Below, in pieces: positions 13,440 through 39,151 of a stretch of 40,605 nucleotides of DNA (position 1 is the first letter of the stretch; the number at the start of each line of letters is the position of its first letter). Made by a program: the position numbers and the translations under genes. The notes under the pieces were generated by a model that made no database searches, was not told the DNA's origin, and saw only the letters and a list, made by a program, of their open reading frames with translations. The DNA comes from a virus. The stretch spans positions 1 through 40,605 of IMG/VR virus record IMGVR_UViG_3300021961_000222; one strand, 5' to 3'.

Positions 13440-13445
13440 ATATTT

Positions 13446-14057: not shown

Positions 14058-14058
14058 T

Positions 14059-14748: not shown

Positions 14749-14750
14749 TT

Positions 14751-15263: not shown

Positions 15264-15270
15264 TTTATTT

Positions 15271-16020: not shown

Positions 16021-16838
16021 TCTTTACAATATAAATCATTAGTATCATGAAAATAATAGGCTGGTCCAAACCATTGTTTAGGTGCTACAACTAACTTATT
16101 TTTATTTTTATTTAGATAAGCAGCCCACCAACTAAATGAACTATTTGCTATTATATTATGATTGCACATTGACATTAAACACATATCAATATACGGATCA
16201 ACATTATTAATATAATGAATATTTTCTTGTTCTCCAAATAATTCTTTACAATAATTTACATCATCAGAAAAAATGATAAAATGATATTCTTTATCACTAA
16301 ATAATTTAATAGCATTTGAATAATATTCTGGGGAGCATATTGGATGGAAATTTTCTAATCCTTTATAATCACCTATTCTTAAATGTATAGATACAGTTTC
16401 TGTAGTTAATTTAGGAAATAATTTATTAGCCTCACTTTGTATATCTAGTTTGAAAGTAAATAATTCTAGTATTTCTTCTTTAACATGTTCAAAATATTTT
16501 TCTGTTTGATAATATCCTTTTAAATCAGCATTATCAGGTATAGAAAAAAATTGTTCATTAAAATGAAAATGAGGTTCTTGAACTTCATATTCAAGACTTG
16601 GGAATATATTTTCTTTAGATCTTAATATATCTTTTTTTAAAGTAAAAACTTTAGGTAAATCAAAAGTACAATATCTTGTTACTCCATCTTTAAATTCTTC
16701 ATATTGTCCCTCAATCATATTCTCCATAGGAAAAGTAACATCATAATTTAGTTTTCTAGCTATACCATATGTCCCAGCAAATTGAAACATTTGGTTTCCT
16801 AATCTACCAAAAAGTCCTATTTTACTGTATGTTATCAT
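16005..16838 (-). CDS. GT11 alpha-1,2-fucosyltransferase-like protein
   Basis: 277 residues with all GT11 hallmarks: GRLGNQMFQFAGTYGIA at the N-terminus, HLRIGDY (HxRxGD, donor GDP-fucose binding) near 173-179, FIIFSDDVNYCKELF, IDMCLMSMCNHNIIANSSFSWW, and VVAPKQWFGP. Length matches the family (about 280-300). It is predicted to transfer L-fucose to galactose on a glycan. The GDP-fucose would have to come from the host, since no biosynthetic genes are visible. Confidence 0.9.
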   Translation of the reverse strand: MITYSKIGLFGRLGNQMFQFAGTYGIARKLNYDVTFPMENMIEGQYEEFKDGVTRYCTFDLPKVFTLKKDILRSKENIFPSLEYEVQEPHFHFNEQFFSIPDNADLKGYYQTEKYFEHVKEEILELFTFKLDIQSEANKLFPKLTTETVSIHLRIGDYKGLENFHPICSPEYYSNAIKLFSDKEYHFIIFSDDVNYCKELFGEQENIHYINNVDPYIDMCLMSMCNHNIIANSSFSWWAAYLNKNKNKLVVAPKQWFGPAYYFHDTNDLYCKEWIVI

Positions 16839-17490
16839 ACAAATTATTTTGTTTCTCTTGTTTCTCTATAGTTTTTATATGCTTTAAAGCTACTATTTCA
16901 TTATCAGGAAGTGGAGCTAAAGACTTATAACCAATTAATACTTCATGTACTTTATTTTTCCATTGTATTTCAGGAATATTTTTACAAATTCTAAACTGAT
17001 AATCAGGGAAATTTATCCAACCTTTTTCATTTACTCTCCATCCCCATTTATCAATATGTTGTTGAGTTAAACCCTCAACTATATTAACTCTAGGTACTAA
17101 CATAACTTCTACTTTATCTTGATTTAATTCAATAATTTCTCTAATTAAATGAATTTGATCTTGACTAATTTCCTCATCAGCATCTAAAAAGAAAATCCAA
17201 TCTTTTGAACAACGTTTTTTAATACTATTTTTAAAAGTAGCAAAGTCTCCATTTAAATCACTAAATACTTTTATTGCTGGGATTATTATTTTTCTTCGTC
17301 TAGATATTACTGGGTTATAGAATCCTTCAAAATCAGATATTATTTTTAAAACTTTATCTGTTGTATTACTACTATCAACTTGAATTATTATTTCATCATT
17401 TTCAATAGTACAAGTTTCTAATTGTTTTAATAATCTACTTAATTCATATGCTTCATCACATACAGTAATAGCAAAACTAATATTAATCAT
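16822..17490 (-). CDS. GT2-family glycosyltransferase (WaaE-like)
   Basis: 222 residues. MINISFAITVCDEAYELSRLL, then IIIQVDSS, WIFFLDADEEIS (DXD-type DADEE) and FPDYQFRICKNIPEIQWKNKVHE. The latter resembles the LPS core glucosyltransferase WaaE/KdtX family (rlFrn..i.w.g.vHE). It overlaps the fucosyltransferase by 17 nt. Probably sugar transfer to a surface glycan; donor unknown. Confidence 0.85.
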   Translation of the reverse strand: MINISFAITVCDEAYELSRLLKQLETCTIENDEIIIQVDSSNTTDKVLKIISDFEGFYNPVISRRRKIIIPAIKVFSDLNGDFATFKNSIKKRCSKDWIFFLDADEEISQDQIHLIREIIELNQDKVEVMLVPRVNIVEGLTQQHIDKWGWRVNEKGWINFPDYQFRICKNIPEIQWKNKVHEVLIGYKSLAPLPDNEIVALKHIKTIEKQEKQNNLYDNIQ

Positions 17491-17493
17491 AAT

Positions 17494-17937
17494 TTAATTA
17501 TCAAATAACCCTAAATAATCACAAGCACTAATAAAGTCATTTTCAAAATGTTTCATAGTAGATGGATCTGATTTATATTTAGCTCCTTTATTAATAGCTT
17601 CTTTTTGTTCTTCTTTACTAAGTTTTCTAACTTTAATAACTGACCATTTCCAATCATCTTTACTAGTACCATTAATAAATACTGTTCCTTTATCATGCAT
17701 ATTAAATGTCATAGGATACCAAATTCTTTTTTCTTTATCAATATGTTTAATATCTTTATACAATTCAGGCATTGTTAACTCATACTCAAAAGGATCAAAT
17801 TCACCCTCAATCATAAGGTCATTAGTATGAAAACCACAACCCATACAATTATATGAATTTTTAGTCTCATTAATAGGTAATGAGTAACAAGCATCTGATC
17901 CACATTTGGGACATACTATTAAATCATCTTTTATCAT
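17494..17937 (-). CDS. Zinc-ribbon protein within the glycan cluster
   Basis: 147 residues. The N-terminus has a zinc ribbon: CPKCGSDACY (Cys9/Cys12) and YNCMGCGFH (about Cys31/Cys34). The rest is hydrophilic with several Trp and Lys clusters (SKDDWKWSVIKVRKLSKEEQ). No enzyme domain is visible. Similar phage zinc-ribbon proteins are usually uncharacterised. It overlaps the GT4 gene upstream by 4 nt. Confidence 0.65.
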   Translation of the reverse strand: MIKDDLIVCPKCGSDACYSLPINETKNSYNCMGCGFHTNDLMIEGEFDPFEYELTMPELYKDIKHIDKEKRIWYPMTFNMHDKGTVFINGTSKDDWKWSVIKVRKLSKEEQKEAINKGAKYKSDPSTMKHFENDFISACDYLGLFDN

Positions 17938-19253
17938 ATTTTCTTTAATTTAGGTAATTCAACTTTTTTCAATTGAGGTAATTTTAGTTCAATTTGTTTA
18001 GGTAACTCAGAAACATTTTTATCAAGTATATGTTTTAATTTTTCTACCATCTTTTCAAATGAAAATTCATTTTTAGACTTAAAAGCCTGACGTTTAGCTA
18101 ATTCAGAATATTTTTTATAATTTAAAAAAACATCATTTAAAGCTCTATTTACTTGAACAATATCTGGGGCAAACCATAATCCTTCTTTTAATATAATTCC
18201 TTGAACATATGCACTTGGGTGAGTTGGTCTTAATTCACCTCCAACAGATAATACAAATTCTGGATTTAAAAAGTCCATATGACCTGACCATCCTGATATG
18301 ATTATAGGTTTTTTAAGAGTACTAAATTCAAGTAATGGACGACCAAAACCTTCACCTTTAGTTAATGATATCATAGCTTTAATTGAAGGGTGATTATACA
18401 AATAATTCATTTCTTCTTCAGATATATCACCATGGATTAGATAGATATTAGGTAAGTCTCCTTTAATTGTTTTTCTTACATTATCTATTCGTTTTAAAAT
18501 TTCATTTCTATCTAACACTGAACTTCCTGCTCCACTTACTTTTAATACTAAAGCTGGTTTGTTCTTTTTATTTTTAAATGTTTCTAAAAATGTTTTTATT
18601 AATAAACCTACATTCTTTCTGTCTTCACCTATTTCACCTTGTAACCAATGTCCAACAAATAAATAACAAAATGTCTCTTCAATACTATCTAAAACTTCAA
18701 CTATAGGACATTCAGGTAATTCATCATCAGGAATTTCAAAATATTTATTTAAATCAACTCCTTCAAATAATACATCAATGGGTTTTTCAAGTTTGATTAG
18801 TCTAACAATTTGACCAGCTTCATTATTTTGTTCAAAATTAATTTCTTCAAATACTTTTTTAGCATGTTCAGAAGAGACTAAAGTTAAATCCATTCTATTA
18901 ACTCCATCAATCCAATTAGGATCACAAACTGTTGTTTCAATACCTGCTGTAACTCCTATACTATATTTACCAATATGTTGAAATTCATTAGGTACTGTTA
19001 TTTGAAACCAAACATCAGGATGTCTAGATAATTGAGTTGTTAAGGCAGGTAAAAGATATGGTTGTAAAAATCCCCACTCCTCAATATGGTCCTCAATATA
19101 ATTCCAAGGTGTATTACCCCAACGTTGAGGGATAATTTGAATATCCCAATCATTTTCTTTTGATTCAATAAGAGCTTTAACAAAATCTCTAGCTCTAGCT
19201 CCGTAACCTGAATATGTGTCTATAGGACAACTAACTACACAATATTGTTTCAT
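17934..19253 (-). CDS. GT4-family (group 1) glycosyltransferase
   Basis: 439 residues of GT-B type. The N-terminal Rossmann half starts SCPIDTYSGYGARARDF. The C-terminal half contains the family motif ISLTKGEGFGRPLLEFSTLKKPII, an E-x7-E arrangement binding the nucleotide sugar. The last approximately 30 residues repeat a Leu-Pro-Lys pattern (LKLPQLKKVELPKLKKI) not typical of the family. Retaining transferase, donor unknown. Confidence 0.9.
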   Translation of the reverse strand: MKQYCVVSCPIDTYSGYGARARDFVKALIESKENDWDIQIIPQRWGNTPWNYIEDHIEEWGFLQPYLLPALTTQLSRHPDVWFQITVPNEFQHIGKYSIGVTAGIETTVCDPNWIDGVNRMDLTLVSSEHAKKVFEEINFEQNNEAGQIVRLIKLEKPIDVLFEGVDLNKYFEIPDDELPECPIVEVLDSIEETFCYLFVGHWLQGEIGEDRKNVGLLIKTFLETFKNKKNKPALVLKVSGAGSSVLDRNEILKRIDNVRKTIKGDLPNIYLIHGDISEEEMNYLYNHPSIKAMISLTKGEGFGRPLLEFSTLKKPIIISGWSGHMDFLNPEFVLSVGGELRPTHPSAYVQGIILKEGLWFAPDIVQVNRALNDVFLNYKKYSELAKRQAFKSKNEFSFEKMVEKLKHILDKNVSELPKQIELKLPQLKKVELPKLKKI

Positions 19254-19254
19254 A

Positions 19255-20691
19255 TTAATATATTAATTTATGTTTAATTTTTTCTTTTTTTAAATCTTCA
19301 ATTTTGATAAATTCTAAAGTAGGACGAGGTTCAAATTTTTCAAAACATTCATCCATGTGTTTAATTACATTATCTGACATAGCTTTAGCTGTCATCATAG
19401 ATTCTTCACTTCTAACCCATTCCATACCTTTTAAACCTTTTTCTTCTCTTTCTTCAGGATTTAAATTATAAACATTTTCAATAGCTTTAGCTATATCTCT
19501 AAAATCACATCTATCATCCCAAATATAAGGTGTTGGTATTGAACCAACTAAAGACATATTATTAGGAAATACTGGTTCTACCCATTCACCATGTTCTTTG
19601 TAAGTACCAAAATGATTTGAGCAAAACTCATCATCAAATTCCATCCATTTCCCATCACGAACAAATCTCATTTGATCCTGCATACCACCAGTAACATTAC
19701 CTATAATCATTGTTCCAGCCATCATACTTTCAGTTAATGATAATCCCCAACCTTCATTTGAAGAAATTAAACAAGTAACATCAGCTATGTTATATAAATA
19801 ATTTAATTGTTCAGTTGATAACATTTTATCATATATCATAACATTAACATAATCATCACAAATGTAATCATAAACTGCTTCTAAGTCTGTACCATTTTCA
19901 TCTCTAACTTGAGTATGTAAAACCAAAATACATTCTTTAGATTTTTCAGGTCCAATATTATCACAAAATACTTTATAACCAGCTATTAAATCAGGAACTG
20001 ATTTTCTTCTAATATTACGAGCATTATAAAAAACTACATACTTATATGTTTTATTACCAAATAATTCTTTTTTATATAATAATAAGTCTTTAAATTTTTC
20101 ATGATTAGCATCAATTTTAAAGAATCGTTCATGATTAATACCATGAGGTACATAACCAATAACTTTATTTTTAGCTTTATCACCTAAAACAAGTTTGTTA
20201 ATATTAACAGTTTGTTTTGAAATACCCATTAAACAATCACATGATTCATAATATGATTCATTATATTTAGGTGCTGGGTAATTATCCCAAATGTTTAAAT
20301 ACATGATTGGAATTTTTTTCCTTATTTCATTTTCTATTTGAAATAACCAAACCCAATATCTAGGGTCAGTAAATAACAAAATAGCATCAATTTTTTCATG
20401 TTTAATAATTTGCCTAATTAAATCAGGATTACCATAACCACTAATAGGCATTACTTGAACATCAGCATCTTCAATCCCATTTAACTCATTTGTAGCTGGA
20501 GATAAATCAAATCGTTGACCTTGTTCTGGGTGATTAATAGCACCTCCTAAATTAACCCAATTGTAATGATGAGCTGTTCCTATAACAAACTCTTTACCCA
20601 TTGTAGCGATTCCTGAATGTAATCTAATATCATCACATAATAGGAGAATACGTTTTCTCTGTTCTTTTGGAATATAACCTTGTTTACTCAT
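19255..20691 (-). CDS. GT4-family (group 1) glycosyltransferase
   Basis: 478 residues. The GT-B N-terminal half has CDDIRLHSGIATMGKEF and the mid-section YVPHGINHERF. The C-terminal nucleotide-sugar motif is LISSNEGWGLSLTESMMAGTMIIGNVTGG. It is a complete GT4 enzyme and the first gene of the long glycan unit, starting 10 nt after the RHH gene. Probably builds the same glycan as its neighbours. Confidence 0.9.
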   Translation of the reverse strand: MSKQGYIPKEQRKRILLLCDDIRLHSGIATMGKEFVIGTAHHYNWVNLGGAINHPEQGQRFDLSPATNELNGIEDADVQVMPISGYGNPDLIRQIIKHEKIDAILLFTDPRYWVWLFQIENEIRKKIPIMYLNIWDNYPAPKYNESYYESCDCLMGISKQTVNINKLVLGDKAKNKVIGYVPHGINHERFFKIDANHEKFKDLLLYKKELFGNKTYKYVVFYNARNIRRKSVPDLIAGYKVFCDNIGPEKSKECILVLHTQVRDENGTDLEAVYDYICDDYVNVMIYDKMLSTEQLNYLYNIADVTCLISSNEGWGLSLTESMMAGTMIIGNVTGGMQDQMRFVRDGKWMEFDDEFCSNHFGTYKEHGEWVEPVFPNNMSLVGSIPTPYIWDDRCDFRDIAKAIENVYNLNPEEREEKGLKGMEWVRSEESMMTAKAMSDNVIKHMDECFEKFEPRPTLEFIKIEDLKKEKIKHKLIY

Positions 20692-27943: not shown

Positions 27944-28345
27944 TTATTTTTCTTTATGTTTATCAATCTTATCTAAGATTGTTGTTAAGGCTTCATTTTT
28001 AATAAATCCAGCCTGTTCCGCATTTTTTAAAGCGCTAATAACTTGGAATACAATTAATGGAATTAATATTGTTTCTGATAACCATGATGTTCCTTTAAAA
28101 CCTGCTTCAACTATTATTAATGCAGTTAATGTAACAATCCAAGCAACTAATGTTTTAAGAATTCTAACAGCTTTATATGTTTTAAATCCTTCTCTTTTAG
28201 TTCCAGCTATTACACCAAAAAAACCATCCATGAATATTACAGCTACAACAGCAAGATACTGATCTGAATTTTCCATTGCTAAGTTAAAGAAATAACTACA
28301 TACAAAGGCAAATGCTGTTGATGTTACTAGTAATGTTGTCTTCAT
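27944..28345 (-). CDS. Holin-like membrane protein (phage holin 4 type)
   Basis: 133 residues with three to four hydrophobic segments. The block FMDGFFGVIAGTKREGFKTYKAVRILKTLVAW resembles the core of the Phage_holin_4 family (lDxlTGi..a...g...S.k...g...K). It sits 0.4 kb from the endolysin. Holins form pores in the inner membrane that let the endolysin reach peptidoglycan. The product at 29557 is a second candidate holin. Confidence 0.6.
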   Translation of the reverse strand: MKTTLLVTSTAFAFVCSYFFNLAMENSDQYLAVVAVIFMDGFFGVIAGTKREGFKTYKAVRILKTLVAWIVTLTALIIVEAGFKGTSWLSETILIPLIVFQVISALKNAEQAGFIKNEALTTILDKIDKHKEK

Positions 28346-28346
28346 G

Positions 28347-28724
28347 TTATCCTATTTCATCATCTAAATGATCTGGAATACCGTCACCATCTACATCAGT
28401 AATCTCACTATATCCTAAAGCTTTCATAAACTGGGCAACTCTTTCTTTTAAATCATTATCACTGTCAGCAAACCAATCTTCTTTAATATTATCATGGCTT
28501 AATACAGTAGTTAAAGCTGTATAAAGACTATCAATATGTTCTACTAAATAGATATCAGCTGCTGTAAAATCTAAACTGAAAGCATAATCATCGATTTGAG
28601 GGATTTTTAATAAACTATCTGTTTTACCTATTTTCTTTTCAGTTGGAATACTTCCTCCAAACTTATGAAAATATTCTCCAATGTAGATATATCCTTGTCC
28701 TTCTTTTAATTGAAACTCACTCAT
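28347..28724 (-). CDS. GIY-YIG/T5orf172-like protein with calcium-binding-type tail
   Basis: 125 residues. GYIYIGEYF then KIGKTDSLLK resembles the start of T5orf172/MUG113 domains (gyvYv...vKIGkT...R), a GIY-YIG relative. The catalytic Arg is not evident, and VEHIDSLYTALTTVL...DWFAD fits the later E...h..WF region. It ends with DVDGDGIPDHLDDE, a thrombospondin-type-3-like calcium loop. Placed in the lysis gene group, with 1 nt overlaps, so nuclease activity is doubtful. Confidence 0.5.
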   Translation of the reverse strand: MSEFQLKEGQGYIYIGEYFHKFGGSIPTEKKIGKTDSLLKIPQIDDYAFSLDFTAADIYLVEHIDSLYTALTTVLSHDNIKEDWFADSDNDLKERVAQFMKALGYSEITDVDGDGIPDHLDDEIG

Positions 28725-29554
28725 TATTTTAATAAATTATAATACTCGTTAAAATGTTTAATACGATCAGGTAAACCAATTGTTCCACCATTTACTCTTT
28801 TAGTAACAGCAGTTACAGTTCCTTGATCAGCTCCCTTATCACAAATAGCCCACAAACCATTCTTATTAAAGAACCAAGCAGCAGACATTAAAGGATATTT
28901 AGTAGCAACCAAATCAGGATTAGATAAAATTTCCTCAGGAACAAATTTATCAAAAGCAGAATAATTATCTTTACCTGTTAATTGAATATAACCACGGCCT
29001 CTAAATTTATATCCTTCTTTTGTAGCCTCAACTCCATTACCCATTCTACCTCCATAAACACGAGAAGCAATAGCTTCAGGTTTACGAGCGTATTGTTCTG
29101 CTAAAGCGGGTGTAAAATATCTTGGGAAGATACCTAATAAACCTTTAGAAGAATAATTTAAGTTTTCTGAAGTTGCTTTCCAACCTCCTGATTCATGACC
29201 ACATTGTGCTAAAAAATGAGCTAATCTTAAAGGATTAGTAATATTAAATTTAACAGCTGTATCAGGAATTTGAGCTAATACTGTATCAGGAATATGTCCT
29301 TTTAATTTATCTAATTTAAATGGACCCGATAAGATTGGAGTTGCAGTTAATGTGGGAGCAGTATCTGGAGTTGTCCCGAACATTTTATTCCATGTTCCGT
29401 CTCCTACTATACCGTCAGCTGTTAGCCCATTAGCTCTTTGCCATGCCTTAACTGCTTCTTCAGTCTTAGGTCCAAAAGTTCCTATTGCTTCAACGCCTAA
29501 TTTGGCTTGAAGTTTTTTAACATTGTCGTTGTTATCACCTCTTTTTAATAACAT
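28724..29554 (-). CDS. Endolysin: peptidoglycan-binding domain plus GH19 (chitinase-like) domain
   Basis: 276 residues. Residues about 5-60 (GDNNDNVKKLQAKLGVEAIGTFG, TADGIVGDGTW) form a PG_binding_1 domain. About 80-276 form a GH19 lysozyme/chitinase domain: FLAQCGHESGGW with likely catalytic Glu, then LLGIFPRYFTPALAEQYARKPE, GYKFRGRGYIQLTGKDNYSAF and GGTIGLPDRIKHF. It degrades cell-wall glycan at the end of infection. No signal peptide, so it needs a holin, consistent with the neighbouring membrane proteins. Confidence 0.93.
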   Translation of the reverse strand: MLLKRGDNNDNVKKLQAKLGVEAIGTFGPKTEEAVKAWQRANGLTADGIVGDGTWNKMFGTTPDTAPTLTATPILSGPFKLDKLKGHIPDTVLAQIPDTAVKFNITNPLRLAHFLAQCGHESGGWKATSENLNYSSKGLLGIFPRYFTPALAEQYARKPEAIASRVYGGRMGNGVEATKEGYKFRGRGYIQLTGKDNYSAFDKFVPEEILSNPDLVATKYPLMSAAWFFNKNGLWAICDKGADQGTVTAVTKRVNGGTIGLPDRIKHFNEYYNLLK

Positions 29555-29845: not shown

Positions 29846-30283
29846 TTAAAGTGAATTTATTGAATTTTTTAATGAGGATTCTAATGCTTTAGAAAATGAT
29901 TTTCGATTTAATGGAACCTCATTATTTTCAACATCTAAAAACATAGCAAAAATAAAAGTACGTCTTTCACTTTTACCTTTAAAACAACCTGAACCTATAC
30001 AAGTAGTTGTTTCTACAATATAGTCTTTACGTAACCATTTTATTCCCATTATATTAACAATCTGTTGTGGAGAATAAATACTATCTATACTAACCCACAC
30101 ATCCATTCCTTCAGTTGTATCATTTACTGGGTTGTATCCTTTGTTAGATAATAATTCTTCAACTGTTTCTTTAACTCCAAAAGTAACATCTCTAGATTCA
30201 ACTTTTTGAATTGTTTGATTATTAGTTACATGAATTTTAATTGGGTTGAGAGATAATAAAGCAGGGATTAGTATATTTAACAT
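29846..30283 (-). CDS. Putative periplasmic protein, unknown function
   Basis: 145 residues with a hydrophobic N-terminus (MLNILIPALLSLNPIKI) that may be an export signal. The rest is beta/alpha with a CIGSGCFKG pair of Cys (possible disulphide) and FAMFLDVENNEVPLNRKSF. The order of elements is loosely reminiscent of CsgG/FlgT-type domains (repeat of strand then conserved Leu helix at the end), but this is not convincing. It is the last gene of the secreted-protein operon. Confidence 0.55.
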   Translation of the reverse strand: MLNILIPALLSLNPIKIHVTNNQTIQKVESRDVTFGVKETVEELLSNKGYNPVNDTTEGMDVWVSIDSIYSPQQIVNIMGIKWLRKDYIVETTTCIGSGCFKGKSERRTFIFAMFLDVENNEVPLNRKSFSKALESSLKNSINSL

Positions 30284-30294
30284 AATTATAAATA

Positions 30295-31368
30295 TTAATT
30301 TCTATAACCTGTTCGAATTAAATAATAATTTGAATTTCCTTTATTTGTAATTCCACTTAAAGTAATAGTTTGTACCCCTGAATAGGTAGCTTTTAAATTT
30401 GAGTTTGAGTTATTTATTGAATTCCATTCTGTTGAAGAAAAAATTCTATAATTCGGAAGTGGATATCTCCATGTTCTTCCTATTATTCTAGCATAAACTA
30501 AATAAACATCTGTCACACTTAGATAATCATCATTATTAACATCCATTCTATAGTAATCTTTAGAATTAAAAGTTTGAGATAATATTTTTTGATTAAATGA
30601 TTGAGCATCACTTATCATAGGAGATGAAATAGTTAAACTACTGATTTCAATTTGGAAATCATAAACTGTAGCATCTTTAGTAGATGAGATAGCATATTTA
30701 CCATTTATATCTGTATTAATAGTACTTTCAAAAGTATAAGTAGAAGATGATTTTAATTTAGAATAAAATTTAACAGGTATATTTTGTATTCCTACTCCTT
30801 CAGAATTGTAAATATAACCTGAATATGAGAAAGGATCTGTAGCACCAACAATTCTGGTTTTAAAATCAAATGTATTTCCATAAGGGTATGTTCCACAAAT
30901 TACAGGTGAACCTGAATATTGCATAATAAATCTCATATAAACTTCACCATTATAAACTGAGGTAGGAACTGTAAAGGAAGCAGTAACTGTTTTAGTTCCT
31001 GTCCATTGGTAATTAGCACTATGGACTAACTCACCAGCATCTGTTAATACTCCATTACCATTAAAGTCAATCCAAAGTTTAAAATATTCCATGTAATTAC
31101 CATTTGTAACTCCTGTATATGAAATAGATATACTTTGTCCTGCTTTAATTCTAGGAACAGTATCTTTAGTATAAGCATAATCATAATAACCAGCAGGACT
31201 ACCACCTGAAGAAGAAGTAAAACCTGTACTTCCAGCAAATGTTCTACCATTAATAGTTATACTAGAAACATACTCACAACAAAAAGTTGTAGGTCTACTA
31301 GCACATAAAGGTGACTGACTATAAAGATTTGTACTGAATAAAAATACTAATATAATTAACCATCTCAT
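30295..31368 (-). CDS. Secreted GEVED-domain protein with dockerin-like module
   Basis: 357 residues: signal peptide (1-17, ending LYS-Q), a Cys-rich N-terminal segment, and a GEVED domain (about 90-170: KLWIDFNGNGVLTDAGELV). Next comes a carboxypeptidase-regulatory-like beta domain (about 180-250) and a dockerin-like module (about 252-298: ISDAQSFNQKIL, MDVNNDDYLSVTDVYLVYAR). The C-terminal stretch FSSTEWNSIN has a close counterpart in the larger secreted protein at 33781. No T9SS sorting domain. Probably exported to the periplasm or outside. Confidence 0.8.
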   Translation of the reverse strand: MRWLIILVFLFSTNLYSQSPLCASRPTTFCCEYVSSITINGRTFAGSTGFTSSSGGSPAGYYDYAYTKDTVPRIKAGQSISISYTGVTNGNYMEYFKLWIDFNGNGVLTDAGELVHSANYQWTGTKTVTASFTVPTSVYNGEVYMRFIMQYSGSPVICGTYPYGNTFDFKTRIVGATDPFSYSGYIYNSEGVGIQNIPVKFYSKLKSSSTYTFESTINTDINGKYAISSTKDATVYDFQIEISSLTISSPMISDAQSFNQKILSQTFNSKDYYRMDVNNDDYLSVTDVYLVYARIIGRTWRYPLPNYRIFSSTEWNSINNSNSNLKATYSGVQTITLSGITNKGNSNYYLIRTGYRN

Positions 31369-32789
31369 ATTTTTAATTTTGCTCCCATTAATATTTGAAA
31401 ATTAAGAATGTCTTGACCAGCTATGTAAGTACCACCTCCTGTTAATCCAATTCCAAATGTTTTAGTTAATTTATAATTTAAATTTAAAAAAGGTATAATA
31501 ATTGGTTTAGCATCAAAAATAGATTCTGTATAAAATTTAGAATAAGGAGAATAAATTCCAGCCATAATAATTGTAGCATCTACTGCTTTACCAATTTTTC
31601 CTTTATACATAAAACCACCTATAGCTATAGTTGATATTAACTCTTCACCAAATAACTGTCCATAGGTTGCTGATACACCATATAAAGCTGTAAATGATTT
31701 GATTGAATTAACTCGTATTAATAAAGCATTTGCTGTAGTAGATTTAGGTAATATTCCTAATCCTACTGAAGCAACATTAATATGTTTATGACCATTTTTA
31801 TTAGTCCCAATCCAAGAACGTATTGCTGATAAATTACCAATTTTAGCATTAACCATATAATCAGCCGAAAAACCTATTGAGGCTGTACCATCACCTTTTA
31901 CACGAGTAAAAGACATAGTACCTCTAGCATCTTGAGAACCATCAGCTCTAGTTTGGACTCCAACAATATCTCCAGTAACTAAGATTGCTGGTTTTTGGGT
32001 TTCAGCTTTAGCTTTACTAGCGGCTTTAGTAGTACTAGCAGACTGTGTTTTTTGTTGTTCAGTCTTAGTATCTTCTATTTGTTGGTCATTTGGTTTTTCT
32101 TCTTTGGGAGTCTCTCCACTATTGTTATTCCCACTCCCGTTACCAGAACTACTACCAGAAGAATTACTGTTATTATTTGAACTATTGCTTCCATTACCTA
32201 CTGTTCCTCCTCCAGATCCATTAGACCCGCCTTGATTTTCTGGTGGATTTCCTCCCTCTTGGCCTGTTCCTGTACTTGGATTCGATCCATCATTAGAATT
32301 GGAACTATTATTATTAGAATTATTGTTAGGATTATTGTTATCATTTTTCTTTTTATTTGTTGTTATACTTCCTGAACCTGAGTTGGTGGTTCCTCCTATA
32401 TTATTTCCTATACCTCCTGATACTCCACTTGTTATAGAAGAGAGATCTAAACTTAATAAGTTAGTAACATTACCTATAATATTAGAAACTTGGTTTGTTG
32501 AAGTTATAGTTGTAGTAGTAGTAAGAACACCTTGACAAGGTGATGTTGATTGGTATTTAATATAAATATTATTAATCCAAGTATCAAATGTACCGTCATT
32601 TAATTCTCCATATGTAAATGTTTTTATTTGTCCATAGTATGAAATAACTATAGGAGAACTCATGTCAGCATTAATAAATTTATTTTGTTTAGTGCATGGA
32701 TCTATATAACTATAGATAAAGGATTGCCCACAAAGGGGCAATCCAATTGTTATTAATATTAATAATATTTTAGTTTTTAAAGATACCAT
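31365..32789 (-). CDS. Outer-membrane barrel-like protein with Asn/Ser/Gly-rich linker
   Basis: 474 residues: signal peptide (1-21, ending PLCGQ) and an N-terminal domain to about 100. A long low-complexity linker (about 125-230) dominated by Asn, Ser and Gly follows, then a charged stretch, then about 220 residues of alternating hydrophobic strands with Gly (GFSADYMVNAKIG, TALYGVSATYGQLFG, YKLTKTFGIGLTGGGTYIAG). Its end (FQILMGAKLKI) looks like a porin strand. This suggests an outer-membrane beta barrel. It overlaps neighbouring genes by 4 and 20 nt. No family recognised. Confidence 0.6.
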   Translation of the reverse strand: MVSLKTKILLILITIGLPLCGQSFIYSYIDPCTKQNKFINADMSSPIVISYYGQIKTFTYGELNDGTFDTWINNIYIKYQSTSPCQGVLTTTTTITSTNQVSNIIGNVTNLLSLDLSSITSGVSGGIGNNIGGTTNSGSGSITTNKKKNDNNNPNNNSNNNSSNSNDGSNPSTGTGQEGGNPPENQGGSNGSGGGTVGNGSNSSNNNSNSSGSSSGNGSGNNNSGETPKEEKPNDQQIEDTKTEQQKTQSASTTKAASKAKAETQKPAILVTGDIVGVQTRADGSQDARGTMSFTRVKGDGTASIGFSADYMVNAKIGNLSAIRSWIGTNKNGHKHINVASVGLGILPKSTTANALLIRVNSIKSFTALYGVSATYGQLFGEELISTIAIGGFMYKGKIGKAVDATIIMAGIYSPYSKFYTESIFDAKPIIIPFLNLNYKLTKTFGIGLTGGGTYIAGQDILNFQILMGAKLKI

Positions 32790-33465
32790 TCTTGATTAGG
32801 TTTTCAATTACTTTAGTTGTAGCAGTCTCTAAAGACTTTCTAGTTGCTTTACCTACAGTACTCTGAGAAAACTTCATATCAAGATTTTTAAGAAATGATT
32901 CACCTACTTTTTGTGACTCACCTTCACCTGAACCGATATATATTTGGCCTGTCATGGCATCAACGAAACGAACTTGGAGACGTATGAAAGTAGTGACAAC
33001 AACTTTACTTTTACCTTTTTCCACAGTCTCATCTTCATCAACAGCAAAATCGGCCACAGTAACATAAACAAAGTAACGAGCAGCTTTAATCTTACCCTTT
33101 CCATCAATGGGCTCTTCAAAGACTCCTTTTTTAGAGGCTTTAAATTGAGTAACCATTCTTTCTTTAATTTCAGATTTTTCTTCTGTAAATATAAATCTTC
33201 CTGTTTCATCTAAATAATCTAATACTGATTCAGCAAAACCTAAACCAATATTCTTTTCTTGAAGGTCTGGATATAAAGCAAGTACCTTAGTCATATCAAC
33301 ATTGATTACCTGGACAGTATATTTTAAACTGTCTGTGTAGTTTGATACTGTTGAGATATCTTTAGTTTCAACAACATCTTGCTCAGTAGTAGTCTTCATA
33401 GAACCACAACCAGCTAATGTCATAACCACCAAGGTCATAAACTTATTGAACCATTTTTTTACCAT
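32770..33465 (-). CDS. CsgG-like lipoprotein
   Basis: 231 residues. A signal peptide ends in lipobox LAGC (Cys20). The mature part resembles CsgG (curli secretion channel) family proteins: FAESVLDYLDETGRFIFTEE (CsgG 'aL...gRF.vver'), AARYFVYVTVADFAVDE (A.YvI.g.It.f), and VVTTFIRLQVRFVDAMTGQIYIGSGEGES (Lrlvda.tGev..s..geg). The final helix LETATTKVIENLI matches the C-terminal helix. It could form an outer-membrane pore or act as a periplasmic accessory. No CsgA/B curlin-repeat gene is visible here. Confidence 0.68.
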   Translation of the reverse strand: MVKKWFNKFMTLVVMTLAGCGSMKTTTEQDVVETKDISTVSNYTDSLKYTVQVINVDMTKVLALYPDLQEKNIGLGFAESVLDYLDETGRFIFTEEKSEIKERMVTQFKASKKGVFEEPIDGKGKIKAARYFVYVTVADFAVDEDETVEKGKSKVVVTTFIRLQVRFVDAMTGQIYIGSGEGESQKVGESFLKNLDMKFSQSTVGKATRKSLETATTKVIENLIKNGIFKN

Positions 33466-33779
33466 GGCTCTTCTTCTTTAGCAGGTTCAGCCTTAGCAGG
33501 AGCAGGAGCAATAGCTGGTTTTTCAATTACACGTTCTTTAATAACAGTGTTAGTACCACCATTTGATTGCTTCTGTTGGTTAGTGTTGTTGTTTTGTAAA
33601 TTAATAACAACAGGAGCACCAGGTGCTGTCTGTTCAGTCTTAACTTCATTTTTAGGCTCTTCACCACCGCCTAAGTGGGTTGCAAACCAGGCACCGCCGG
33701 CTGTAACCGCTGTAGTGATAGCTCCAATAATTGCTTTTTTGGTAGCTGACATTACGCTTTCTTCTTTTTCTTCTGACAT
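33459..33779 (-). CDS. Membrane-anchored Gln/Asn/Ala/Pro-rich protein, 106 aa
   Basis: A short hydrophilic N-terminus, one membrane helix (about 14-35, IIGAITTAVTAGGAWFAT), then a low-complexity tail: VINLQNNNTNQQKQSNGG, a charged VIKERVIEK, and an Ala/Pro/Glu-rich end (APAPAKAEPAKEEEPW). The tail looks unstructured and long enough to cross part of the periplasm. It overlaps the CsgG-like gene by 7 nt. Function unknown. Confidence 0.6.
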   Translation of the reverse strand: MSEEKEESVMSATKKAIIGAITTAVTAGGAWFATHLGGGEEPKNEVKTEQTAPGAPVVINLQNNNTNQQKQSNGGTNTVIKERVIEKPAIAPAPAKAEPAKEEEPW

Positions 33780-33780
33780 A

Positions 33781-35670
33781 TTATTTATTTATAATTATTT
33801 TTGAAGTTGAAAGTTGTGTATCAGTTTTAATAGACATTAAGTAAAATCCGTTATCTAAGTGAGTTAAATTAACATTGTATTTATATTCACCTACTGGAAT
33901 TTTAGTATTTAAAATTTCAATCATTTTTCTTCCTACCATATCTGTAACTGAAATTTCAGTTTGGGATTCTTGTTCAATTTTAAATTGAACTACTACTTCA
34001 CCTTGGGTTGGATTAGGAAATACAATAATTTTTTCTAAATCATTTAATTTAACTGCTTTGTTAATTCTACGAACTTCAACTACACCCATAGCAGGAGTAA
34101 TATTCATATCACGAGCATCATTATCTCCTACATACTTAGGACCAGTCCATAAAGCCGCTGTACCCCATTCAGATTGAGGTTTTTTAGCTATAAATTGTAA
34201 AATAAATACTTGTTCACCATCATTAACTAAATTTTTATTAGTCAAATCAGCAGCTCCAAAAGCAACTACTCCATTAGAAGGATTAGTATAAGAAGTCCAA
34301 TTCATCATCTTTTCAGATAAATCAATTTTCTTAAATTCTAATAAAGCAGTATCATACTTTAATTCTAACTGTAAAGCACCTAATTGTTTTCCGTTAGTAA
34401 GCATTTTAACAGGAACATTAACTAAATTACCTTCATCAACTTTAATTTTAGGCATATTAATTTCAATAGTTTCAATCACATTATCATATTGAACTGTATT
34501 ATCAATAATATAATTTTTAGCATTTACTGGATTAGTAATTTTAATAGGTGTTAAACGAGCCATTTTAAAACCAGTTCCATTAGCATCACCCTTAACATTT
34601 ATATAATAAGTAATACTATCTTTACCATCAATTGTATAATAAAAATTAGTTACACCTGAAATTGTAGGAGCATAGTTAGTAGAAGAAGCATTAATAGTAT
34701 TATATTCTGCTACTGTAAAGAATAATATATCTTTTTGTGAATTAGGCCAAGCTGAAAATCTACCAGCTAAACGAGCATAAACAGAATAAACATCAGCAAT
34801 TGTAATTGAACCATCAGCTCCATTTACATCCATAGAATAAAAATCAAATCCTGTTGGAGTATAAGATGAAAGCATTACTTGATTAATTTTTTGAGCATCA
34901 GCTGTTGAAAAAATAGAACCAGCAGTCATTGTATCACCTTTAACAGCCATTCTAACATCCCAATAAGTTGTATCAATGTTTTTAAAGAACACTACATGAC
35001 CATTAGTATTAGTAGCTTTAGCTTCAACCTGTGTCCAAGATCCACCTGGTGCTTTCTTTTCTAAAGCAACCCATAAGTTTTTAGCATTTGTACCAGTAGT
35101 ATTAATAAACTTACCAGCGAAACGTAACATTCTTTGGTTAAAACGACCACCATAAGAGTAAACTACCAATGTAGTATCATTACCATAGTTTGTAGCAGCT
35201 TTATTACTAAATGATTGAACACCTGTAATTTTTAATGTTTTAATTGAATCTAAGGTATTCCAATTAGCTGCTGAAGTATGAGTAAATGTTAAATCAAAAG
35301 TAGCACCATTTGAATAATTAAATGTAGAGTTAGTTCCTGTGTAAACTACAGTTACAGTTAAATGTCCTTGAGTGTTGTTGTCTGTGTAAGAAAGTACCTG
35401 ATCTGTAGTAGAAATTTTTAATGAAGGAACAGCTGCTGTAAATGCAGTGTTATCATAAAATACTCTATACTGCATACCTGTAATCTTTTCAGATGTAGAA
35501 GTATTGTAGAAGTATAGAGGAGCTATAGTTTGTCCACTAGTGTGAACACCTACTTGATAACCAGAGTCAATTACCACCCAGTGACCTGTTCCTGGTGAAG
35601 TTGATGCATTTTGAGCATAAGCTCCTAAAGCTAATAGGAGCGAGGAGAGAAATAATGTTATTTTTTTCAT
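33781..35670 (-). CDS. T9SS-sorted secreted protein with cohesin-like and dockerin-like domains
   Basis: 629 residues. Signal peptide 1-19 (LALGAYA-Q); a cohesin-like beta domain (about 30-170); a beta sandwich (about 175-250); a dockerin-like module (about 255-304: STADAQKINQVML, MDVNGADGSITIADVYSVYAR); a second cohesin-like domain (about 400-535). A type IX secretion sorting domain ends the protein (about 547-629: VFPNPTQGEVVV, ISVTDMVGRKM, HLDNGFYLMSI, TSKIIINK). The last matches the Por secretion C-terminal domain. The product should leave a Bacteroidota host by T9SS and be surface-attached or released. A phage origin makes this unusual. Confidence 0.85.
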   Translation of the reverse strand: MKKITLFLSSLLLALGAYAQNASTSPGTGHWVVIDSGYQVGVHTSGQTIAPLYFYNTSTSEKITGMQYRVFYDNTAFTAAVPSLKISTTDQVLSYTDNNTQGHLTVTVVYTGTNSTFNYSNGATFDLTFTHTSAANWNTLDSIKTLKITGVQSFSNKAATNYGNDTTLVVYSYGGRFNQRMLRFAGKFINTTGTNAKNLWVALEKKAPGGSWTQVEAKATNTNGHVVFFKNIDTTYWDVRMAVKGDTMTAGSIFSTADAQKINQVMLSSYTPTGFDFYSMDVNGADGSITIADVYSVYARLAGRFSAWPNSQKDILFFTVAEYNTINASSTNYAPTISGVTNFYYTIDGKDSITYYINVKGDANGTGFKMARLTPIKITNPVNAKNYIIDNTVQYDNVIETIEINMPKIKVDEGNLVNVPVKMLTNGKQLGALQLELKYDTALLEFKKIDLSEKMMNWTSYTNPSNGVVAFGAADLTNKNLVNDGEQVFILQFIAKKPQSEWGTAALWTGPKYVGDNDARDMNITPAMGVVEVRRINKAVKLNDLEKIIVFPNPTQGEVVVQFKIEQESQTEISVTDMVGRKMIEILNTKIPVGEYKYNVNLTHLDNGFYLMSIKTDTQLSTSKIIINK

Positions 35671-35671
35671 T

Positions 35672-36109
35672 TTATTCAGTTATTATAATTTGTTTTAAAG
35701 TATGATTCCATAACCATTCTTCAATATTAGGTAACTTTTTTATAAAACTTAATTCATATCTATAACACATATTTTCTTCTTTTTTTGTATCTAAAGATTT
35801 TTCAGATAAATAAAGATGAAAACTTTCATGTATAACTACAGATGCTAAATTATTTAGTGAATTTAATTTAACATCATTAACAGAAACAACAATGGTTTTT
35901 TTACCATCATTAGTTGAATAATTTCCATTCCAAAACTCAATTTTATTACAAACGTTTAGAAGTAAATTATATTTTGTTGAATCGTATTGTTTAATAAGAT
36001 TTATAGCTGAATCTATTTTAAGGTCCCACCCATCTCCTGCTTTATCAACAATAATTTGTCCTTTGCAGAAAATAGGCACTAATAAAAATAATAGAGCTGC
36101 TAGTCTCAT
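35672..36109 (-). CDS. Secreted HEXXH putative metallopeptidase
   Basis: 145 residues. Signal peptide 1-17 (FLLVPIFCKG-Q). HESFH at residues 94-98 within SVVIHESFHLYL is a zincin-type HEXXH. A Glu at 119 (CYRYEL) could be the third zinc ligand, as in gluzincins. The protein is short and I recognise no specific peptidase family. It is the first clear gene of the secreted-protein operon, 1 nt from the T9SS-sorted protein. Confidence 0.6.
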   Translation of the reverse strand: MRLAALLFLLVPIFCKGQIIVDKAGDGWDLKIDSAINLIKQYDSTKYNLLLNVCNKIEFWNGNYSTNDGKKTIVVSVNDVKLNSLNNLASVVIHESFHLYLSEKSLDTKKEENMCYRYELSFIKKLPNIEEWLWNHTLKQIIITE

Positions 36110-36236: not shown

Positions 36237-36271
36237 ATAAAAAAAAATGGTCCCCTATAAATATAGAGGAC
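36237..36271 (-). terminator. Intrinsic terminator after groEL
   Basis: On the minus strand GGTCCTCTATA and TATAGGGGACC pair (one T-G) around a TTTA-like loop and are followed by A then nine T. It sits 25 nt beyond the groEL stop and separates the chaperone unit from the secreted-protein operon. Confidence 0.9.
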
Positions 36272-36295
36272 CAATCTAACAATGAATAAAAAAAC

Positions 36296-37891
36296 TTAGA
36301 AACCTATTTCAGGATCATTTTTCTTGTCTTCTTTTTTTTCAAACACAACACTTTCAGTAGTTAAAATAGTTCCAGCTACTGATACAGCATTTTCAATAGC
36401 TGTTCTAGTTACTTTAACTGGATCAATAATACCGGTTTCAAAAGCATCAACAACATCCATTGTTTTAGCATTAAATGTTTTCTTTTCTGAAGTTAGTTTA
36501 GACAAGGGACGATAATAATCTTCAATACCAGCATTAGACAAAATAGTTTTAAATGGAGCTAAACATGCTTTTGCTACAATTTTATGTCCAATATTAACAA
36601 TAGACAATTCTTTTTGAGCGTTATAAAGAGCAACACCACCACCAGCTACAATACCTTCAGCTAAAGCAGCTTTAGTAGCATATAAAGCATCTTCTACTCG
36701 ATCTTTTTTTTCTTTCATTTCAATTTCAGAGTTACCTCCAACTGAAATAACAGCTACACCACCTACTAATTTGCCTAAACGTTCTTGAAGTTTTTCACGT
36801 TCAAACATTGATTGAGCATTGTCAATCTGATATTTAACTTCATCAGCGCGTTGTTCAATAGCTTCAATTTCACCTTTTCCATCAATAATTGTTGTTTTTT
36901 CTTTACCAACATTAACTGTACGGCAACGACCTAACATAGGAGCAATTTGTTGAGATGTCATTTTATCTAATTTAAAACCCTTGTCTTTAGAGATAACAGT
37001 ACCACCAGTTAACACAGCCATATCCTCAAGCGCCAAAGTACGTCGTTCACTAAAGTCAGGCGCTTTAACTGCGCATACTTTAACGATACCACGCATCTTA
37101 TTAACAATAAGTGTAGCTAAAGCTTCATCTCCAAAATCATGAGCTACAATCAATAAAGATGAATTTTCAGCGTTAGCTTTAGTTAATACAGGTACTAATT
37201 CAGCAGCTGTAGATACAACACCATCAAATAACATAACCATAGGTTCAGTTAAAATTGATTGCATAGAGTTATTATCAGTAACAAAATAAGGTGATTTGTA
37301 ACCTCTGTCAAATTGCATACCTTCAACTACTTCTAGTTGTGTTTCACCTGTTTTACTTTCTTCAATTGTAACAATACCATCACGACCTACTTTTTCAAGT
37401 GCTGTTGAAATTAAATTACCAATTTCTTCATCATTGTTACCTGAAATAGTAGCTACATGTTTTAATTGTTCATCATCAGTAACAGGTACAGATTGACGTT
37501 TTAGTTCTGCTACAACAATAGCTACAGCTTCTTCCATAGCCCTTTTAACTTCAACTGGATTAACACCAGAATCAATTAGTTTGATTCCTTCTTCAACCAT
37601 AATTGTAGTTAATAGAGTTGATGTAGTTGTACCGTCTCCAGCTTCATTAGCTGATTTAATAGACACTTGTTTAACAAGTTGCGCTCCTAAATCTTCTACT
37701 TGATCAGATAATTCACTGAATGATTTAGCTACTGTAACACCATCTTTAGTTACTTTAATACTACCATCTTGATCCTTAATTAAAACATTTCTACCACCAG
37801 GACCAAGTGTTGATGATACACTCTTATTGAGTTTTTGAATTCCACTCAATAATTTGTTTTTTAATTCATTTCCAAATACTGTTTCTACCAT
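36296..37891 (-). CDS. groEL: GroEL chaperonin (60 kDa)
   Basis: 531 residues, full length. ATP-binding motifs TLGPGGRNVLI (about 28-38), TKDGVTVAKS and AGDGTTTSTLL (about 82-92), and AEGIVAGGGVALY near 400 are intact, so ATPase function is expected. The C-terminus ends NDPEIGF instead of the Gly-Gly-Met tail of host GroEL. It pairs with groES 5 nt upstream. It forms the double-ring folding chamber, here perhaps for phage capsid or other large proteins. Phage GroEL genes are known in a few large phages but are uncommon. Confidence 0.97.
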   Translation of the reverse strand: MVETVFGNELKNKLLSGIQKLNKSVSSTLGPGGRNVLIKDQDGSIKVTKDGVTVAKSFSELSDQVEDLGAQLVKQVSIKSANEAGDGTTTSTLLTTIMVEEGIKLIDSGVNPVEVKRAMEEAVAIVVAELKRQSVPVTDDEQLKHVATISGNNDEEIGNLISTALEKVGRDGIVTIEESKTGETQLEVVEGMQFDRGYKSPYFVTDNNSMQSILTEPMVMLFDGVVSTAAELVPVLTKANAENSSLLIVAHDFGDEALATLIVNKMRGIVKVCAVKAPDFSERRTLALEDMAVLTGGTVISKDKGFKLDKMTSQQIAPMLGRCRTVNVGKEKTTIIDGKGEIEAIEQRADEVKYQIDNAQSMFEREKLQERLGKLVGGVAVISVGGNSEIEMKEKKDRVEDALYATKAALAEGIVAGGGVALYNAQKELSIVNIGHKIVAKACLAPFKTILSNAGIEDYYRPLSKLTSEKKTFNAKTMDVVDAFETGIIDPVKVTRTAIENAVSVAGTILTTESVVFEKKEDKKNDPEIGF

Positions 37892-37896
37892 AATTT

Positions 37897-38184
37897 TTAT
37901 TTTTCAATAACTGCGATAATATCTTGCCATTTACAAGCAATATATTCTTCATAATCTAAACTAATTTTTTGTCCTCCCATAGCTGGAATGAAAACAACAT
38001 CTCCTACTTCAACATCTGGTGCCACCCATTTATCACTATGGAAGTTGTAAGTTCCACTAATTGCTATTACTTCACCTACCTGAGCTTTTTCTTTACCTAA
38101 ATCAGGTAAAATAATGTTACCTACTGTTTTTTCTGTTTCATCAATAGGTTTAATAATAATTGTTCCGTTAACTGGTTTAATCAT
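37897..38184 (-). CDS. groES: GroES co-chaperonin (10 kDa)
   Basis: 95 residues, the usual length. N-terminal strand GTIIIKPIDE, mobile loop ETEKTVGNIILPD (GroEL-binding, with IIL where E. coli has GIV), GKEKAQVGEVIAISG, and VGDVVFIPAMGGQKISLDYEEYIACKWQDIIAVIE at the end. It caps GroEL. Upstream of groEL by 5 nt, so the pair is coexpressed. T4 uses gp31 for the same role; this one is closer to the bacterial sequence. Confidence 0.95.
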   Translation of the reverse strand: MIKPVNGTIIIKPIDETEKTVGNIILPDLGKEKAQVGEVIAISGTYNFHSDKWVAPDVEVGDVVFIPAMGGQKISLDYEEYIACKWQDIIAVIEK

Positions 38185-38189
38185 AATTT

Positions 38190-38474
38190 TTATTTAATAA
38201 ATTTGTCAAAAATGTCTGTAAAATCATCTAATTTTTCTTGATAGGAATCAACGAATTCATCCAATGTGTATTCTCTAGTACCTAACATTTTTTGTTTAAC
38301 AACACTATGAATAGCACCACTCATCCTTGAGTAATAACCTACTACTTTGTCATTATTATTAGTTTCTTCCATAACACTAAAACACATTCCATCATAATAA
38401 ATTACAAATGGTTCTAGTTTAGAATCTCTAATAACTAAAGAACTGTCTTCTTTTCTTGGTTTACCTTTTTTCAT
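38190..38474 (-). CDS. Hypothetical protein, 94 aa, ahead of groES-groEL
   Basis: A soluble protein with basic start MKKGKPRKED, middle FVIYYDGMCFSVMEETNNND and an acidic helical end (LDEFVDSYQEKLDDFTDIFDKF). No domain recognised. It is the first gene of the chaperonin unit, and its promoter-like element lies only 6 nt before its ATG, so its mRNA may be leaderless or nearly so. Confidence 0.6.
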   Translation of the reverse strand: MKKGKPRKEDSSLVIRDSKLEPFVIYYDGMCFSVMEETNNNDKVVGYYSRMSGAIHSVVKQKMLGTREYTLDEFVDSYQEKLDDFTDIFDKFIK

Positions 38475-38480
38475 ATAATA

Positions 38481-38511
38481 TAATATAACTAACTTTATTT
38501 AATTTTCCAAA
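38481..38511 (-). promoter_or_regulatory. TTTGG-N16-AGTTATATTA promoter for the chaperonin unit
   Basis: TTTGG (38511-38507), 16 nt, AGTTATATTA (38490-38481) on the minus strand; ATG at 38474. The TTTGG box overlaps the end of the gene upstream. Close to the start codon, unlike most copies (21-32 nt). Confidence 0.68.
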
Positions 38512-38696
38512 CTTTCTTCAATAATTGTAGCTTCTTCTACTAATCTAACAAACCATAGTTTTCCATCCTTTCTAAAAACATCAGTACATTGATATTTAAA
38601 TTTCATTCTATCAATATCCATAGTTTTAGTTTCAGGCTCAGTATGAATTACTTCATACAACATATCATTGTTAGTCTTAATTAGATGAAATTTCAT
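38499..38696 (-). CDS. Hypothetical protein, 65 aa
   Basis: A soluble small protein: MKFHLIKTNNDMLYEVIHTEPE, a beta-rich middle (KYQCTDVFRKDGKLWFVRLV) and acidic end. Looks like a small beta-barrel or SH3-like fold (speculative). It starts 12 nt after an inverted-repeat arm that follows the hsp20 gene. Unknown function. Confidence 0.55.
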   Translation of the reverse strand: MKFHLIKTNNDMLYEVIHTEPETKTMDIDRMKFKYQCTDVFRKDGKLWFVRLVEEATIIEESLEN

Positions 38697-38707
38697 AACT
38701 TAAAAAA

Positions 38708-38720
38708 ACCTCAGGGCAAA
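38708..38720. repeat. Left arm of 13-bp inverted repeat flanking hsp20
   Basis: Plus-strand ACCTCAGGGCAAA is the exact reverse complement of TTTGCCCTGAGGT at 39177-39189. It is followed on the minus strand by a run of T. It lies 6 nt past the end of the hsp20 coding region and is unusually GC-rich for this window. Confidence 0.7.
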
Positions 38721-38725
38721 GATTT

Positions 38726-39151
38726 TTATTTAATTTTTAATGTTTTTAATTGTGATTCTTTAGCGAATGGAACATAAACTTTTAGCAATCCATTTTCCAT
38801 CTCAGCTTCTGCTTGAGATAGATCATACCTAGAAGCTACTTTGTAGCCTAAACTAAATGATCGACGAGCAATACCTTTATGTATATACTCACAATCATTT
38901 ACTTCACAGCACTTATTGTCCTGTTCTTTAGCATAACTAACTTTTAAAATGTCTCCTTCAATAGAAAGATTAACTTGTTCTTTAGTTAGACCAGTACAAG
39001 CAATCTCAAAATAGAGACCTTCTTTATTTTCGTAAATGTCTACAGGGTGAGAAATTTTGGCTTCAATAGCCGGAGTGAATGGTGAACTTGATTCAAAAAA
39101 GTTCTTGACTAGAATGTCAAACGGTGTGTTTAATAATAATTTGTGTGTCAT
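38726..39151 (-). CDS. Small heat-shock protein (Hsp20/alpha-crystallin family)
   Basis: 141 residues. The alpha-crystallin domain is visible from PVDIYENKEGLYFEIACTGLTKEQVNLSIEGDILKV to RRSFSLGYKVASRYDLSQAEAEMENGLLKVYVP. It binds unfolding proteins without ATP. A Cys pair (NKCCEVNDC) interrupts the loop between strands. It has a recognisable Shine-Dalgarno (TTAGGAG). T4-like cyanophages and other large phages commonly encode Hsp20. It stands between perfect inverted repeats and near groES/groEL, suggesting a phage proteostasis set. Confidence 0.92.
   Translation of the reverse strand: MTHKLLLNTPFDILVKNFFESSSPFTPAIEAKISHPVDIYENKEGLYFEIACTGLTKEQVNLSIEGDILKVSYAKEQDNKCCEVNDCEYIHKGIARRSFSLGYKVASRYDLSQAEAEMENGLLKVYVPFAKESQLKTLKIK

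Follow-up and report, generated by a model that had tools for sequence, protein, structure and literature searches.

In cellulosomes, the proteins that partner the scaffoldins are typically enzymes. Among phages, cargo of the type IX secretion system (T9SS) is already known as such, a phage-encoded cargo with a proposed hijack of the host system having been reported for the cryoconite 'Cryophage' (Bellas et al. 2020, PMC7468147). In that report, the T9SS type A sorting domain is borne by three enzyme-like or PA14 genes themselves, and these vary between the phage variants. In addition, CsgF/CsgG modules are known in pelagimyophages and Melnitz (PMC7029224, PMC9004378). The accessible parts of the two papers propose a role at the outer membrane and, in one of them, host clumping ('sibling capture'), and report no cohesin or sorting domain for these modules.

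Here, we describe a locus in the window, which is the whole stretch of DNA analysed and comprises the complete, linear IMG/VR virus record IMGVR_UViG_3300021961_000222 (40,605 bp). The record is probably a fragment, contigs of relatives reaching 176 kb and 308 kb. From the predicted domains we propose, with moderate confidence, that the gene under study supplies the anchor for a surface-display cassette of the phage, in which a T9SS-delivered cohesin anchor would show interchangeable glycan-binding partners on infected cells (Table 1). As in Cryophage, T9SS type A sorting domains occur in phage genes and go together with variation between relatives, but in the present cassette the sorting domain is borne by a conserved cohesin anchor whereas the variable heads lie on a separate partner without one. 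The likeness to cellulosome scaffoldins consists of a cohesin recognised by sequence and fold and of dockerin-like tails on separate, putatively secreted partners; the cassette differs in being phage-encoded, in its T9SS sorting domain, in its predicted glycan-binding heads and in a dockerin-like module that is not proven to be a dockerin. With the CsgF/CsgG modules it shares the form of a phage cassette of predicted exported envelope proteins in large myophages, but its protein Csg231 fails the tests for CsgG described below. What appears to be new is the context, namely a modular cassette of anchor and binder that can be tested in an isolated phage and its host. No phage cohesin/dockerin or T9SS-anchored lectin cassette was recognised in the titles and abstract starts of the open-access papers searched, and the description of phage immuto itself may discuss the genes.

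Table 1. Positions of the cassette genes, anchor domains and neighbouring features in the window
Feature	Positions	Strand	Remarks
tRNA genes	3377-26467	-	Eight genes
Glycosyltransferase-rich stretch	9474-20691		PHROGs 841 and 2170 in three ORFs
Holin-like gene	27944-28345		
Endolysin	28724-29554		
p145	29846-30283	-	Small predicted envelope protein; immuto homologue gp019, 26-27% identity
Partner	30295-31368	-	357 aa; predicted signal peptide, GEVED head, transthyretin/SdrD-like domain, dockerin-like tail
OMP474	31365-32789	-	Signal peptide, Ser/Asn/Gly-rich linker, outer-membrane-barrel-like C-terminal part (by eye)
Nine-pair hairpin	32721-32744		Within the start of OMP474, just past the Csg231 overlap
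Csg231	32770-33465	-	Predicted lipoprotein, with a lipobox by eye; conserved better than any other cassette gene
TM106	33459-33779	-	Small; one membrane-like stretch, Gln/Asn/Pro-rich tail; immuto homologue gp016
Anchor (cargo)	33781-35670	-	629 aa, ATG start; sorting domain at C-terminal end
T9SS type A sorting domain	33787-34023	-	Anchor residues about 550-628; TIGR04183, PF18962, PDB 8glk
Cohesin domain	34099-34464	-	Anchor residues 403-524; PF00963 43.1 bits, cut-off 24.1
Dockerin-like module	34741-34932	-	Anchor residues about 247-310; one conserved calcium-loop pattern
HExxH protein	35672-36109	-	Signal peptide; putative zinc peptidase
Terminator-like hairpin with T-run	36248-36273	-	Between groEL and the cassette
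Stretch with groEL, groES and the Hsp20-like ORF	36296-39151		Upstream of the cassette
Hsp20-like ORF	38726-39151		Assigned by eye

Domains of the anchor protein

The first-pass annotation had described a reading frame of this length with a T9SS C-terminal domain and had quoted the motifs supporting it; both the frame, at the stated coordinates, and the motifs are present, and the domain was borne out by the profile search that had been suggested. TIGR04183 scored 48.4 bits in a six-frame search and 42.9 bits with hmmscan (cut-off 23), and PF18962 aligned over its whole length (profile 1-75 of 75) to residues 550-627 with 48.6 bits (cut-off 27). With both families over their curated cut-offs at the C-terminal end, the anchor is a predicted T9SS type A cargo protein. 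Among known structures, 8glk (E 4.1e-5) and 8glj (E 0.025), both of them sorting domains, were matched by the anchor family profile. The sorting-domain family PF13585 was found in none of 20 related records, a search in which the positive control was also without a match, and the sorting domain alone gave one weak match (E 0.3) among annotated phages. As the sorting domain in this phage gene is genuine, the host export machinery would naturally be expected to place the protein at or outside the surface. This part of the earlier reading stood; the cohesin, the dockerin-like parts, the partner and the cassette had been overlooked.

From the N-terminus, the anchor consists of a signal peptide, which resembles a typical one by eye, a weakly cohesin-like domain, a weakly matched transthyretin/SdrD-like domain, the dockerin-like module, the cohesin and the sorting domain. 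The cohesin scores over the PF00963 cut-off, and the anchor profile matched the solved cohesins 6kg8 and 6kgc. When the AlphaFold2 model of the anchor was run through Foldseek, the best matches were again cohesins, including some whose crystals also contained a dockerin (6kgf chain A, target-length TM-score 0.79). Overall, the quality of this model is poor (mean pLDDT 50, pTM 0.30), and the cohesin fold is read locally, at block means of pLDDT 53-78 over that part. We also considered the N-terminal domain as a second cohesin and did not adopt this assignment (PF00963 E 0.015; hhalign between the two domains 0.2%).

The same dockerin-like module is common to anchor and partner, as observed with local HMMs and by alignment. 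Dockerins have two calcium loops. An alignment of 43 representatives of the module showed one conserved calcium-loop pattern after a helix-like stretch and no second loop recognisable by eye, and the two F-hand calcium loops of dockerin type I were not found in them. Dockerin_1 (PF00404) recurs at the module below its cut-off, in five of ten partners (best E 0.0067) and in three of five further full-length anchors (best 19.1 bits, cut-off 22.9), and no match over the cut-off of this family was obtained. There was no Dockerin_1 match in the anchor and partner of the window (Pfam, E 1), nor in immuto gp013-gp015. A profile of the module built from 28 segments matched the dockerins 4fl4_A (E 0.0023) and 2y3n_B (E 0.012) in the PDB; its two best matches were to a nuclease/phosphatase-domain protein (9sf8 and 9sf9, E 0.0018), and EF-hand proteins were close behind, for example 5t7c (E 0.016). 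The module is best described as dockerin-like.

An IMG/VR scan for anchor relatives found 87, of which 80 were kept and one is identical to the protein of the window. Two further scans with immuto proteins gave 113 relatives (80 kept) and 27, and the loci were pooled for the domain searches, in which the family alignment of the anchor was cut into five slices, converted to HMMs and run against all ORFs of all loci. Gene context was counted in the 85 loci whose sequence extends 4.5 kb or more before and 5.5 kb or more after Csg231; 66 of them are distinct in sequence around this gene. The anchor was observed in 65 of the 66, fused in 52 and split in 13. The fused form carries the N-terminal, transthyretin/SdrD-like, dockerin-like, cohesin and sorting domains in one protein, whereas in the immuto clade two adjacent genes encode the first three domains and the cohesin with the sorting domain, the second gene having its own signal-peptide-like start. 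In the remaining locus the cohesin ORF stops ahead of the sorting domain (L116:4946-5356), and elsewhere an anchor is spread over two ORFs (L065:1057-2724); these interruptions may be real or assembly errors. The anchor is under purifying selection (median dN/dS 0.15, 60 pairs).

Partner proteins and the replacement of their heads

The GEVED head of the window's partner occupies residues 95-170 (PF20009 51.3 bits, cut-off 24.4), while its transthyretin/SdrD-like domain and tail were found with the local HMMs SdrTTR and Doc. No sorting domain was detected in this protein, nor among the partners run through Pfam. A partner was recognised by HMM in 63 of the 66 distinct full-context loci, the ORF at the corresponding place in the remaining three shows the module by eye, and locus L122 carries two partners. 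Among 95 distinct complete partners, the heads were assigned to C-type lectin (42), LamG plus C-type lectin (14), GEVED (11) and PA14 (10), with 18 unassigned; these classes come from BLAST against five domain queries, Pfam having been run on 10 of 14 representatives. Glycan-binding head classes thus make up 77 of the 95 when GEVED is counted and 66 when it is excluded. The adhesion suggested by the first-pass annotation is favoured by the presence, in most relatives, of a partner gene with a predicted lectin or other glycan-binding head.

The identity of the head changes readily with respect to the anchor. On the anchor tree, a quick tree with a long-branch warning in its report, head class requires at least 28 changes as compared with a mean of 46.0 after shuffling (42-50, 200 shuffles); head class therefore partly follows kinship, yet it changes often. 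The tree holds 87 distinct rows from 135 loci and is confined to loci in which the anchor is complete and a single complete partner is present. The state of the anchor, fused or split, requires one change on the same tree. As an example of head replacement, in six pairs of loci chosen for differing heads the anchors are 91-98% and the p145 proteins 83-99% identical but the heads 29-58%, whereas two control pairs of the same class have heads of 89-91% identity. Both ends of the partner are conserved in three of the six pairs (first 45 residues 73-76%, last 110 residues 78-87%), while in the other three, which compare GEVED with lectin, the entire partner gene differs. Heads of one class have a median dN/dS of 0.17 and the other cassette proteins 0.10-0.29 (60 pairs each). 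A stable anchor next to putative glycan-binding heads that are rapidly exchanged is reminiscent of a response to surface glycans that vary, and such exchange would fit receptor masking and adhesion equally.

The cassette in the window and in phage immuto

The genes on the minus strand are ordered HExxH protein, anchor, TM106, Csg231, OMP474, partner and p145; neighbouring genes are never more than 11 bases apart and overlap by no more than 20. As judged by eye, this order is kept across loci of the IMG/VR relatives within the limits of the stretches retrieved. In the window, groEL and the endolysin flank the cassette. Terminator-like sites, one of which precedes the cassette (Table 1), number 10 in 12.5 kb against 3.7 expected, and a scan for sigma-70-type promoters found 70 against 65.9 expected. 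The HExxH motif is present in all 70 distinct homologues of the first protein; its matches to PF18958 and PF10263 are weak and below cut-off, and it has no match in immuto or any annotated phage record. None of ten proteins was matched by PADLOC at E 0.01.

Insertions were observed within the cassette of some relatives. Homing-endonuclease-like genes (PHROGs 314 and 1035) are found at L018:2824-3420 and L064:10526-11122, the first type in ten loci, and they might promote exchange of cassette genes. Between the anchor and TM106, six loci have two added genes, for proteins of 196 and 156 aa without a PHROG match (e.g. L030:10481-11568), and 22 loci encode a protein of some 120 residues that has two membrane-like stretches (e.g. 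L007:7864-8226).

Of the predicted envelope proteins, TM106 has no family match over cut-off and OMP474 none in the family searches. Csg231 was compared with seven CsgGs, the PDB and Pfam, using a profile of 50 sequences and then one of 28 more diverse sequences, and its identity as a CsgG was not established. The hhalign values were 3.7% and 0.6%, PF03783 matched two of the 28 members (E 0.01 at best), the LpoB model of the CsgG family scored 20.6 bits (cut-off 110.55), and the profile had no PDB match. A structure prediction for Csg231 (pLDDT 39) was discarded, and p145 showed no similarity to Csg231 or to CsgG. Two Enterococcus phage records match part of Csg231 (E 0.003-0.004).

The annotated phages with anchor relatives are four records, all of Flavobacterium phage immuto (three isolates and the RefSeq copy, NC_055915). 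A Baltic mesocosm was the source of this phage and Flavobacterium sp. LMO8 the host used to isolate it; its genome of 160 kb includes genes for a tail sheath and a T4-like head. The same operon, which the first-pass annotation had advised seeking in other phage genomes, is present there as gp013-gp019, with six gene kinds of the window's cassette, as well as in the related IMG/VR loci; the immuto genes are annotated as hypothetical, cohesin-domain and lectin-domain proteins only. In gp015 both the cohesin and the sorting domain are over their Pfam cut-offs, and in gp014 Pfam detected no sorting domain. Immuto differs from the window in that the anchor is split into gp014 and gp015, the partner, with a C-type lectin head, lies upstream of the anchor instead of downstream of OMP474, and the HExxH gene was not found. 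The genome position also differs, the immuto cassette occupying 10.5-16.4 kb and the group of groES, groEL, endolysin and holin 40-45 kb. The cassette has nevertheless stayed together, which shows that it moved as a unit.

The presence of the gene in an isolated phage also bears on its authenticity, for which a chromosomal or chimeric assembly had been named as the danger. Comparison with 125 kb fetched from immuto gave matches for 28 ORFs of the window, one of which overlies tRNA genes, and each of 20 long related virus records contains exactly one PF18962 match over cut-off. The point in favour of bacterial contamination or a chimeric contig is the single relative found in a scan of bacterial and archaeal species genomes, a scan made with two peptide patterns only, so that host relatives with other sequences would escape it. 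This relative sits on a contig of 16.5 kb, from a MAG labelled as Sphingomonadaceae, which carries the anchor together with Csg231 and is probably a mis-binned phage. We regard contamination as refuted for practical purposes. The phages with this cassette are a widespread group of large aquatic phages infecting Flavobacterium-type bacteria.

Proposed role on the infected cell

In an infected Flavobacterium-type host, the anchor would enter the periplasm by means of its signal peptide, and the host T9SS would read the C-terminal sorting domain and carry the protein across the outer membrane. At the surface, the cohesin would hold the partner by its dockerin-like tail, and the exchangeable head of the partner (GEVED in the window and C-type lectin, LamG or PA14 in relatives) would bind glycans; we infer both docking and binding from the domains, from co-conservation and from the split anchor of immuto. 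A binding protein chosen by the phage would thus coat the infected cell. The likely purpose is altered stickiness of the cell, either as receptor masking against competing phages or as adhesion to sibling cells or particles. TM106, Csg231, OMP474 and p145 probably assist the partner or the anchor across the outer membrane. Since the partner and immuto gp014 have no detected sorting domain, they would need another exit, bound to the anchor or through the conserved envelope proteins, or would have none. We suggest only tentatively that the phage runs a modular display of the scaffoldin type, in which the cohesin anchor exports dockerin-like partners (gp013 and gp014 in the immuto clade) piggyback, bound in the periplasm, and binding specificity shifts as the heads are swapped at one locus in an arms race over surface glycans.

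Other readings of the locus were weighed against surface display. The anchor could be a stand-alone adhesin exported by the T9SS, with the cohesin and dockerin-like parts as structural spacers and the partner acting separately. Surface proteins do use cohesin and EF-hand-like modules as spacers, and Dockerin_1 stays below its cut-off, docking being predicted from sequence; but a module-bearing partner accompanies the anchor in every distinct full-context locus and the immuto clade keeps the two anchor halves as separate proteins, and we consider a stand-alone adhesin unlikely. The position of the endolysin and the holin-like gene after the cassette, and of the HExxH protein ahead of it, would suit an aid to lysis or release at the outer membrane late in infection, for example through a weakened membrane or the release of progeny held by surface glycans. 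Lysis does not, however, call for rapidly exchanged glycan-binding heads, and in immuto the cassette is at least 24 kb from the groEL-endolysin-holin block, so that its proximity to lysis genes is not conserved; a role in lysis is improbable.

It is more improbable still that anchor and partner are parts of the virion such as fibres or capsid decorations. Phage particles often bear glycan-binding domains exchanged among relatives, as would be expected under that reading. Tailed phages assemble in the cytoplasm, however, and the signal peptides (by eye) and the sorting domain point away from it; in immuto, moreover, head and tail genes are annotated at about 119-159 kb, far from the cassette.

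If surface display is true, phages of Flavobacterium-type bacteria rebuild the exterior of the infected cell with a plug-in binding system for which the host T9SS is the delivery route. Immuto and Flavobacterium sp. LMO8 make it testable what a phage gains from remodelling the host surface, be it exclusion of competitors or host aggregation, and whether the T9SS can export cargo-bound proteins without a signal of their own.

A second surface theme in the window is the alteration of surface glycans by the phage, for which a glycosyltransferase-rich stretch is partly syntenic with immuto; glycosyltransferase genes are also found in immuto. The window further contains a set of tRNA genes (Table 1). 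In immuto, the region at about 18.6-37 kb (NC_055915; L002, L204) has annotations for genes of the queuosine type and for the DNA guanine transglycosylase DpdA, which suggests modified DNA.
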